Shown piece by piece: positions 51,036-52,494 of a stretch of DNA of 64,000 nt. The notes under the pieces were generated by a model, which saw nothing but the letters and a program-made list of their open reading frames with translations, did no database searches and was not told where the DNA came from. The stretch's first letter is position 1; each line of letters starts with the position of its first letter. The translations under genes were made by a program, and so were the position numbers. The stretch covers positions 62,001 through 126,000 of the forward strand of contig NZ_BKZP01000005.1 in the NCBI RefSeq assembly GCF_008974185.1, in the 5' to 3' direction. This DNA comes from Weizmannia acidilactici (GTDB lineage: Bacteria; Bacillota; Bacilli; Bacillales; Bacillaceae_C).

Positions 51036-51224
51036 GTTGGAGAAGGCCGTGCCTTTGTATTTGGACGGATATTGTCGGTACGTACACTGTGTACAAGAGC
51101 AACTTTTTCACCGTACATCCCCTCCTAGTTTTCTTCTATTTACCCTCATTATAAGTGAAAAATCGCACATTGCCGTCCTGTATACAAGGGTTTCAGCCTT
51201 TTTTATTTTATTGCAAATATACGG

Positions 51225-51253
51225 TTTACAAACCGGCAGGAATTGGATATACT
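51225..51253 (+). promoter_or_regulatory. sigma-A promoter of the small-ORF locus
   Basis: TTTACA (51225-51230), a 17-base spacer and TATACT (51248-51253). Predicted start near 51260, about 36 bases before the first short ORF. Confidence 0.7.
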
Positions 51254-51295
51254 TTCCTATGTAAGCAAATTCATTTCTTAAGGAGGTTGTAGAAC

Positions 51296-51382
51296 ATGAT
51301 TTATCCAGTGCTGATGTCTTATTTTACAGCTGAACATGTTCAACATTCGCTCCTTAACGGTTTAGGTTTGCACATGATTTGA
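51296..51382 (+). CDS. 28-residue short ORF 1
   Basis: Starts MIYPVLMSYFTAEHVQHS and ends GLGLHMI. A perfect AAGGAGG at 51280-51286 lies 9 bases before the ATG, stronger than most genes in this window. Followed at once by two terminators. No known family recognised. It may be a leader peptide or a short membrane-active peptide. Confidence 0.6.
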   Translation: MIYPVLMSYFTAEHVQHSLLNGLGLHMI

Positions 51383-51397
51383 ATCTCGGCCGCGTAA

Positions 51398-51480
51398 CCG
51401 CAGGAAGCAATGTTGACGATTCCTGCGGCTTTTTGCTTTTTTCGGAAAACCGCAGGCGCGTTTCTTCCTGCGGTTTTTTT
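51398..51480 (+). terminator. tandem terminators after short ORF 1
   Basis: CCGCAGGAA / TTCCTGCGG (51398-51428) with TTTTT, then AACCGCAGG / CCTGCGGTT (51447-51475) with T run. The arms share CCGCAGG/CCTGCGG, so arms of one can pair with arms of the other. Confidence 0.75.
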
Positions 51481-51503
51481 GCGCCTTAAAGGAGGTGGGG
51501 AAA

Positions 51504-51647
51504 TTGACGTTGAATTTAATATTTGTCACTGTCACGATCAAGCGGATAAAAAAGACTCGGGAACAAAGGCAACATGATGAAGAAGTTTTCAGGCTGTACG
51601 AGGAAATAAGTGCAAAACGCGCCGAATTTCAAATCAGGAATTTCTAA
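51504..51647 (+). CDS. yrzI: YrzI family small protein (short ORF 2)
   Basis: 47 residues: a hydrophobic beta/helix-like start (MTLNLIFVTVTIKRIKK) followed by a charged helix (EQRQHDEEVFRLYEEISAKR). AAAGGAGG stands 12 bases before a TTG start. Position after yrhC fits B. subtilis yrzI. Function unknown to me. Confidence 0.75.
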   Translation: MTLNLIFVTVTIKRIKKTREQRQHDEEVFRLYEEISAKRAEFQIRNF

Positions 51648-51685
51648 TGGATGGAAAAACTTCCACAAGAAAGGAGAAAGATCCT

Positions 51686-51757
51686 ATGATTCCAGCAATC
51701 ATGCCCTGGTATACAAAACGCTTGCACTTTATCTTGATGGAGAAAGACTCCACCTAG
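51686..51757 (+). CDS. 23-residue short ORF 3
   Basis: Begins MIPAIMPWYTKRLHFILM and ends EKDST. GAAAGGAGA stands 9 bases upstream. It shares the M-I-x0-1-P start and aromatic Y-T/F-T turn with short ORF 1 (MIYPV.. / MIPAI..), which suggests a duplicated or convergent leader. Confidence 0.5.
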   Translation: MIPAIMPWYTKRLHFILMEKDST

Positions 51758-51784
51758 CTAAATCTATTTGCAGGGGGTGGCGGA

Positions 51785-51844
51785 ATGTTTTTGCACATTT
51801 TCATCTTCACCGCCGTTTTCCACTGGCGGAAAAAGAAAAGCTGA
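51785..51844 (+). CDS. 19-residue hydrophobic short ORF 4
   Basis: Encodes MFLHIFIFTAVFHWRKKKS: a hydrophobic segment capped by Trp-Arg-Lys3. AGGGGGTGGC lies 4-5 bases before the ATG. The hydrophobic/basic layout is that of many small membrane peptides, including type I toxins. Its stop lies inside the following terminator. No sequence match is claimed. Confidence 0.5.
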   Translation: MFLHIFIFTAVFHWRKKKS

Positions 51845-51868
51845 TGGCCTTGGCCATCAGCTTTTTCT
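51837..51868 (+). terminator. terminator after short ORF 4
   Basis: AAAGCTGATGGCC / GGCCATCAGCTTT with T run; starts inside the last codons of the short ORF. Confidence 0.85.
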
Positions 51869-51941
51869 AAATATGCAGGGAAAAGCCGTATTGTATTTAA
51901 AGCATACAAAAAAAGGGAGCGTTTCAAGGGTGGTGGAAAGA

Positions 51942-52189
51942 ATGTCTCTGATCGGTGTCGAAGAATCTCTAACAAATGCAATGGATGAGCTCTACGAAAA
52001 AGGTTATGACGAGAAAGCATTTCAGAATGAGGAAAATGCGCAAGGTGTGACTGTTATGTCGGAACCGGCGGAAACGACAATGTAGTGGGAATAGAAAATG
52101 CGTCTGAACCCTGTCCAATCATTGATGCAGAAAGTTTTTCAGCGGATGGATTCATCAAAAAAGTTGTAAGCAAATTGCAGCAGCCTTGA
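51942..52189 (+). pseudogene. UPF0180 (YkuS-like) gene with a 1-base deletion
   Basis: The first frame reads MSLIGVEESLTNAMDELYEK-GYDEKAF...NAQ, the N-terminus of UPF0180 proteins. After codon 30 the frame shifts. In the next frame GCDCYVGTGGNDNVVGIENA and FSADGFIKKVVSKLQQP continue the family (AQGCDCCVVTG, DNVMGI, VCQEVERKL). Inserting one T at CAAGGT^GTGAC (about 52043) restores the whole chain of about 82 residues. The product is probably not made, unless this is an assembly error. Confidence 0.85.
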
Positions 52190-52494
52190 AGGATTTGGGG
52201 AAATTACCGGGCCTCTTTTTTATAGGGAAGGATCCCGATAGTTGCAATGATTGCGGAAAAAGCAAATACATGATGGTTTATCAATTGAAAAATATTTTCA
52301 ATTGGAGAATGATAGACAAGCGGTCATTTTTCCAGAATTTCAATTACCAGGCTTATTTTTCAATTCAACAGAGTAGACGTCAGCAAAAATGCCCAAAATG
52401 CAATATTACAAATATAAAAATCGTTGGTTTATGACTATTTCAGCCGGATTCCGGAAACGATAAAATTGCTCAAGAGAAAACCGGGTGTTATTGC
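52190..52494. other. gene-free, AT-rich stretch before ahpC
   Basis: A frame with two CxxC pairs is open at 52186-52434 but has no ribosome site and no family I know. I see no other structure here. Confidence 0.3.

Follow-up and report, generated by a model that had tools for sequence, protein, structure and literature searches.

A probable ribosome-dependent transcription attenuator in the leader of the yrzI small-peptide operon of Weizmannia acidilactici

The yrzI operon of Bacillus subtilis (S1026-yrzI-S1025-S1024) is both a translation-inhibitor reporter and a model Rae1 substrate, and no account of its induction was found in the literature searched. In the primary Rae1 papers S1025 is said to encode 17 amino acids, and its cleavage by Rae1 reportedly depends on translation and on the reading frame. 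The gene yheI, which is named beside yrzI as a reporter, we take to be bmrC. S1024, S1025, S1026 and yrzI are candidate Rae1 targets (PMC10632193), S1025 is the first characterised Rae1 substrate (PMC11780869), and a yrzI-luciferase fusion is listed, alongside yheI, as a reporter of protein-synthesis inhibition (PMC7604286, citing Hutter 2004a). It has also been reported that the yrzI and bmrCD mRNAs are up on RNase P/Z depletion (PMC10100781) and that bmrBCD and yrzI are both up in a whiA mutant (PMC10714963). Transcripts of the region have also been described: an Hfq-bound RNA of 234 nt, ncr2184/ncr60, lies between yrzI and yrhG (PMC3574147), the yrzI 5' UTR of B. licheniformis is 301 nt long (PMC3871023), and in FZB42 the interval from yrzI to yrhG yields a small transcript that bears an ORF and was formerly called an sRNA (PMC4634765). 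In the B. subtilis-like genome of our comparison (G449), yrzI at 2778941-2779072 adjoins the published ncr2184/ncr60 coordinates (2779115-2779348), which suggests that this genome is that of strain 168 or a nearly identical one.

Three described leaders resemble the one analysed here. The vmlR leader of B. subtilis follows a like logic of anti-antiterminator, antiterminator and terminator, keyed to a ribosome that halts on the leader ORF during initiation or close to it (PMC9226507). The B. subtilis bmrBCD leader is controlled by ribosome-mediated attenuation induced by translation inhibitors, as we propose for yrzI (PMC4191407), and the bmrCD mRNA is also a Rae1 target, whose level changes together with that of yrzI under two conditions. 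For rli80-hflXr of Listeria, a leader ORF (14 aa), alternative hairpins and induction by lincomycin and erythromycin have been described (PMC6310831).

Layout of the operon in W. acidilactici

The window analysed is a stretch of 64,000 nucleotides from a 3.19 Mb Bacillales draft genome. Direct reading of positions 51225-51868 located what the original prediction had placed there, namely one promoter, four short ORFs of 28, 47, 23 and 19 aa, and three intrinsic terminators, with a purine-rich ribosome site 5' of each ORF; all of these lie on the forward strand. An mtnN-like gene and yrhC (YrhC Pfam E 4e-22) are found upstream, and an AhpC-type peroxiredoxin gene 3' of the operon. The gene family, the gene order and the set of small ORFs are the same as in the B. 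subtilis yrzI operon, Rae1 is encoded in both genomes, and judged by sequence the locus is the orthologue of that operon. YrzI is present in 19 of the 34 genomes of the host's family and in 193 of the 397 of its order; our comparison set consisted of 204 YrzI loci, oriented on YrzI.

The promoter, TTTACA-17-TATACT at 51225-51253, has 10 of 12 matches, a quality that in a single match does not exceed the chance expectation in 1 kb. TTTAC-N16-18-TA---T was found 5' of ORF1 in 174 of 180 related loci and in 52 of 53 lineage representatives. The extended -10, GGATATACT, is common in relatives, as is a TTAC/GTAA dyad after it. Of the 174 leaders with a detected promoter, 92 have this dyad (TTAC-N2-5-GTAA) immediately 3' of the -10 box; in the window it occupies 51253-51265, and it is a possible operator or 5'-end stem.

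Two observations concern the flanks. An 81 bp stretch at 51085-51165 is 98.8% identical to L002:1486-1566 on contig C29 of the same genome, and appears to duplicate, in shortened form, the 5' end of a small gene on the minus strand next to yrhC. Downstream of the operon, a UPF0180 (YkuS-like) gene is split across 51945-52190, its N-terminal half (E 2e-4) and C-terminal half (E 0.2) lying in different frames, and the pieces look like a pseudogene.

Coding sequences of the operon

The second peptide (51504-51647, 47 aa, TTG start, Shine-Dalgarno (SD) AAGGAGG at 51489-51495) had been assigned to the YrzI family, and a Pfam search bore this out (PF09501, E 3.2e-8, 34 bits against a cut-off of 23); with NCBIfam TIGR02413 it scored 22.7 bits, under that family's stricter cut-off of 47. 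The recognition of this one ORF alone proved wrong or incomplete: ORF3 (51686-51757, 23 aa, MIPAIMPWYTKRLHFILMEKDST, SD AAAGGAG at 51670-51676), a short ORF with EKD-type codons beside yrzI, is the equivalent of the known Rae1 substrate S1025. ORF3 had no Pfam or NCBIfam match, and a plasmid search was likewise without a match. ORF4 (51785-51844, SD AGGGGGTGG) encodes a 19-aa hydrophobic peptide with a basic tail. Scored against the YrzI profile, 30 of 75 ORF4 peptides exceeded the 99th percentile of shuffled sequences, the likeness being to the N-terminal part of YrzI, and ORF4 is possibly a truncated YrzI paralogue.

The original prediction had proposed testing the four frames for synonymous-biased conservation. 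Related loci were compared in non-overlapping pairs, and pN/pS was 0.17 for YrzI (49 pairs), 0.26 for ORF3 (52 pairs) and 0.25 for ORF4 (16 pairs), which indicates purifying selection on ORFs 2-4 and identifies ORF3 and ORF4, at the level of sequence comparison, as real coding sequences. ORF1 did not follow, its peptide being nearly unconstrained at 0.78 (38 pairs), though its frame and its RNA are kept.

An ORF3 tail of the xKD[S/T] type was found in at least 151 of the 204 loci, which is a detection rate under a search rule that admitted only ORFs with an xKD[S/T/Q]-like tail; a liberal search added 13 further loci, some of them doubtful. The usual tails are EKDST, EKDQV, EKDTT or MKDTT, and the B. 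subtilis-like locus L190 of genome G449 has a 17-aa ORF3, MLRMELLMHYTMEKDQV. In many species GTGGAGAAAGATTCCAC forms a small hairpin in ORF3. This hairpin (GGTGGA..TCCACC) was rejected as the main constraint: it is missing in genus g52 and in the subtilis group, both of which keep EKD, and the EKD tail is kept in two operon orders. Because the hairpin is missing where EKD persists, the tail is kept as codons or as peptide, as would be expected for the site of a translation-dependent nuclease. GAG AAA GAC TCC ACC (EKDST, 51740-51754) is the expected Rae1 cleavage region, given the conservation of the tail and the S1025 precedent, and by analogy Rae1 probably cuts ORF3 in W. acidilactici as well. 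The genome itself encodes Rae1 (PF05991, E 3.8e-60). Co-occurrence of yrzI and rae1 was uninformative as evidence since rae1 is nearly universal, with a Rae1/YacP match in 396 of the 397 genomes of the order; the exception, G412, has YrzI.

The arrangement of these genes varies among relatives. Genus g52 (L169-L181) has the order leader, ORF3 (..TEKDST), then yrzI. In L011, L012, L052, L097 and others, two to five copies of YrzI stand in tandem; most multi-YrzI operons are closed by a single ORF3, and L128 carries YrzI and ORF3 duplicated together.

The ORF1 leader and its alternative pairings

ORF1 (51296-51382) encodes 28 aa, MIYPVLMSYFTAEHVQHSLLNGLGLHMI, and had no Pfam or NCBIfam match. 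The start pattern that had been noted in ORFs 1 and 3 (MIYPV/MIPAI) is absent in relatives and is a matter of chance. At least 22 open codons were found in the ORF1 frame in 82% of lineage representatives, compared with 6% and 39% when the remaining frames are read, the low +1-frame figure being partly accounted for by ATGA starts. The SD of ORF1 (TTAAGGAGGTTGT, 51278-51290), which we call element 1, pairs in the minimum-energy fold with element 2 (TTCAACATTCGCTCCTTAACGGTTT, 51339-51363), in the 3' part of ORF1. Element 2, which also shows up in an inverted-repeat search of the window, is a candidate anti-SD and antiterminator strand that can pair either with element 1 or with the 5' arm and loop of the first terminator, T1.

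A segment complementary to its own SD is typical of ORF1, commonly AGGAGGTCGAA with TTCGACC; this exact core is missing from 13 of the 53 representatives, the window included, where other bases pair. Across lineages the core of element 2 is read in all three ORF1 frames (translated as HST, IRP or FD), and because it falls in every frame the constraint acts on the RNA. The ORF1 stop codon ends a near-constant 21 nt past this segment (5-95% range 19-50 nt). From its sequence behavior, ORF1 is a leader ORF rather than a functional peptide. No run of codons for a single amino acid is common to these leaders, only 3 of 53 having any triple (RRR, LLL, MMM). An amino-acid biosynthetic attenuator of the trp/his type was set aside for want of a shared regulatory-codon run among the 53 leaders, and the lack of such a run suggests that the leader would respond to ribosomes arrested near initiation in general, and not to a particular amino acid.

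T1 (51398-51434, fold z -2.3) comprises a stem at 51398-51428 and a T-tract; its 5' arm (51398-51406) lies inside element 3 (51396-51417) and its 3' arm (51420-51428) is element 4. T2 (51444-51480, stem 51444-51479, fold z -3.3) has as its 5' arm element 5 (51444-51456) and as its 3' arm element 6 (51467-51479). The terminator of the operon, T3 (51835-51869, stem 51835-51866, fold z -4.8), is an inverted repeat that overlaps the end of ORF4. T1 and T2 have loops too long for an automated terminator scan, which therefore passed them over; the inverted-repeat search picked up T2 and the arms CCGCAGG/CCTGCGG that it and T1 had been said to have in common. The leader as a whole (51266-51500) folds much better than shuffled sequence (z -4.6). 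The succession of SD, ORF1 and terminators was found in 180 of the 204 YrzI loci, 148 of them with two terminators and 18 with three. The arms are CCGCAGG/CCTGCGG in most families and CCACAGG/CCTGTGG in others, and are mostly alike within each genome.

The original prediction had derived attenuation from these common arms. Exchange of arms between T1 and T2 was ruled out as the sole switch: hairpins using the T2 3' arm still terminate, and since these pairings still end before the U-tract no readthrough would result, while expression of yrzI by readthrough requires that T2 fail too. The T2 5' arm ranks fifth among the 31 window terminators for pairing with the T1 3' arm. Alternative pairing itself gained comparative support, but only once the ORF1 segment at 51339-51363 was added to the arms.

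Since the loop between elements 1 and 2 is too variable in length for a useful alignment, a covariance model was replaced by a matched/mismatched test, in which the duplex energy of an element with its own partner was compared with that for partners taken from other lineages. Two scales were used: 53 clusters, and one locus per family for 23 families in 60 random draws. Over the 53 clusters, matched pairs were more stable than mismatched ones for 1:2 (-15.1 versus -12.6 kcal/mol, z -8.2), 2:3 (-16.0 versus -12.4 kcal/mol, z -10.0) and 4:5 (-12.8 versus -10.7 kcal/mol, z -6.7), and the control pairings 1:3 (z +1.7) and 2:5 (z +0.2) showed no matched advantage. With one locus from each of the 23 families the z scores were -5.8, -6.1 and -5.6 for 1:2, 2:3 and 4:5; for the controls 1:3, 2:5 and 2:4 they were +1.9, +0.8 and 0.0, and at this scale element 2 has no specific pairing to T2. 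The pairing 3:6 is as strong as 4:5 over the 53 clusters, which makes a 4:5 hand-over indistinguishable from plain duplication of the terminator sequence. In the window, 2:3 joins UUCAACAUUCGCUCCUUAACGGUUU (51339-51363) to AACCGCAGGAAGCAAUGUUGAC (51396-51417) at -21.0 kcal/mol, and 1:2 has -15.4 kcal/mol. The anti-antiterminator (1:2), antiterminator (2:3) and terminator (3:4) pairings are mutually exclusive, as in an attenuator, and frame retention, the SD and T1/T2 together place a leader ORF, predicted to be translated, upstream of an intrinsic terminator. Alternative pairing with attenuation at the yrzI leader is strongly supported by these comparisons.

Folding model, rival explanations and related systems

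Folding was scored on the transcript just short of the T1 3' arm. With no ribosome, the mean predicted probabilities were 0.81 for 1:2 and 0.40 for 2:3. Occupation of the SD and first codons raised P(2:3) to 0.93, with values above 0.5 in 51 of 53 lineages, and a ribosome at the ORF1 stop gave 0.29. When the SD was occupied and element 3 was foreign or shuffled, P(2:3) was 0.65 or 0.54, and paired tests of the advantage of the own element 3 gave p of about 1e-8 and 1e-9. A 29-nt footprint moved along ORF1 gave mean P(2:3) of 0.82-0.85 only for stalls at codons 1-3 and as little as 0.09 near codon 23. In a few lineages, L190 and L172 among them, folding favours 2:3 with no ribosome at all, and by itself shows no switch there. 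In the fully transcribed leader 2:3 is less stable than T1 in almost every lineage. Equilibrium P(T1) was uninformative as a test of switching, because T1 wins nearly everywhere, and for the same reason the model needs co-transcriptional kinetics. The bmrB antiterminator is likewise the less stable structure, and co-transcriptional timing was proposed there (PMC4191407).

We consider it probable that the yrzI leader is a conserved ribosome-dependent transcription attenuator that feeds the mRNA of Rae1-targeted peptides. Gene identities, coding status, and the conservation and covariation of 1:2, 2:3 and 4:5 were computed here; the Rae1 substrate, the reporter use of yrzI and the mRNA rise on RNase P/Z depletion are inputs from the literature. 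In the absence of a ribosome, element 2 would pair with the SD, T1 would form and transcription would stop. A ribosome that reached the 3' half of ORF1 in unhindered translation would cover element 2, with the same outcome, and the short terminated product would be the counterpart of the B. subtilis small RNA ncr60/ncr2184. If translation were blocked and the ribosome stayed on the SD and first ORF1 codons, element 2 would be left free to pair with element 3 and T1 would be broken; that this strand can be exposed without translation of ORF1 is modelled from folding. The freed T1 3' arm could then capture the T2 5' arm, giving readthrough past both terminators and synthesis of the peptides. Such a capture needs matching arms, as are observed, and simple duplication would give the same pattern; the hand-over from T1 to T2, like switching on real transcripts, is what the model infers. 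Once ORF3 was translated, Rae1 could cleave the mRNA, and the response would cease.

This model would explain the induction of yrzI, and hence its use as a reporter of protein-synthesis inhibitors, and it predicts that the best inducers are drugs that stall the ribosome during initiation or on codons 1-3. It brings ncr60 as the leader sRNA, induction by drugs and decay through Rae1 into one scheme, and it would account for the retention, in many families, of two or three successive terminators whose arms match. More tentatively, and with somewhat less than even confidence, we suggest that the leader represents a widespread undescribed class of attenuators, in which the leader SD is a competing strand, tandem terminators form a 'domino' and the mRNA is destroyed via ORF3. 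The sensor of such a class would be a ribosome held at initiation or within the first three codons, and the domino a register change from 1:2/3:4/5:6 to 2:3/4:5 as one unit, by which several terminators would open together.

It is unlikely that the leader is a simpler one, in which ORF1 would be autoregulated at translation or the product would be the sRNA ncr60/ncr2184, the terminators would insulate, yrzI would be expressed by leakage and its rise would reflect mRNA stabilisation only. Rae1 needs translation, so a translation block should indeed stabilise the mRNA. The yrzI transcript is among the mRNAs raised on depletion of tRNA maturases, several others of which were shown to be stabilised, and part of its rise under translation stress could have this origin (PMC10100781); ncr2184/ncr60 is, moreover, a discrete Hfq-bound RNA (PMC3574147), and the FZB42 yrzI-yrhG transcript was called an sRNA (PMC4634765). 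A leader of this kind nevertheless leaves unexplained the complementarity of element 2 to its own T1 5' arm (z -6.1, 23 families) and not to that of T2, as well as the matching arms of T1 and T2. A toxin-like or toxin-antitoxin locus, with membrane-active peptides and RNA features controlling the toxin, is very improbable: hydrophobic N-terminal stretches followed by basic residues in YrzI and ORF4, RNA-level control that looks elaborate and up to five tandem YrzI copies in some genomes would suit it, whereas the ORF1 peptide is nearly unconstrained and inspection of the locus revealed neither an RNA nor a protein antitoxin. That ORF1, ORF3 and ORF4 are chance ORFs and YrzI the sole gene is scarcely credible, for although frames of about 20 codons after purine-rich sequence are common, the pN/pS values of ORF3 (0.26, 52 pairs) and ORF4 (0.25, 16 pairs), the ORF3 tail in at least 151 of 204 loci and the open ORF1 frame contradict it. 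An RNA-regulated small-peptide operon, as originally suggested, is the best description of the locus, and the earlier interpretation as a whole is partly supported.

The yrzI gene set and its link to Rae1 were already known. The yrzI leader is undescribed as an attenuator in the literature searched, which was seen partly as excerpts; Leroy 2017, Deves 2023 and Hutter 2004 lay outside that scope and may hold a prior statement. Rfam gave no gathering-score match in eight lineages, and in the window only weak sub-threshold chance matches.

Compared with the B. subtilis yrzI operon, ORF3 here has the EKD tail and is 23 aa long rather than the 17 of L190, yrzI starts with TTG, and Rae1 cutting is predicted; the last peptide is a hydrophobic 19-mer, where the subtilis group has an ORF of about 51 aa that is unrelated to it. 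Listeria rli80-hflXr differs in its RLR stalling motif, the one terminator of the published model and the resistance gene downstream, and a tandem terminator array is absent from the portion of the published description examined (PMC6310831). By analogy of mechanism, the closest systems appear to be bmrB and, for its sensing of initiation arrest, vmlR. In bmrB the structures lie all inside the ORF, there is one terminator and a transporter is controlled (PMC4191407). In vmlR the uORF has 3 codons, the SD is outside the hairpin and there is one terminator (PMC9226507), whereas in the yrzI leader the SD would itself be the competing strand, the ORF has about 25-40 codons, and two or three terminators would be linked.
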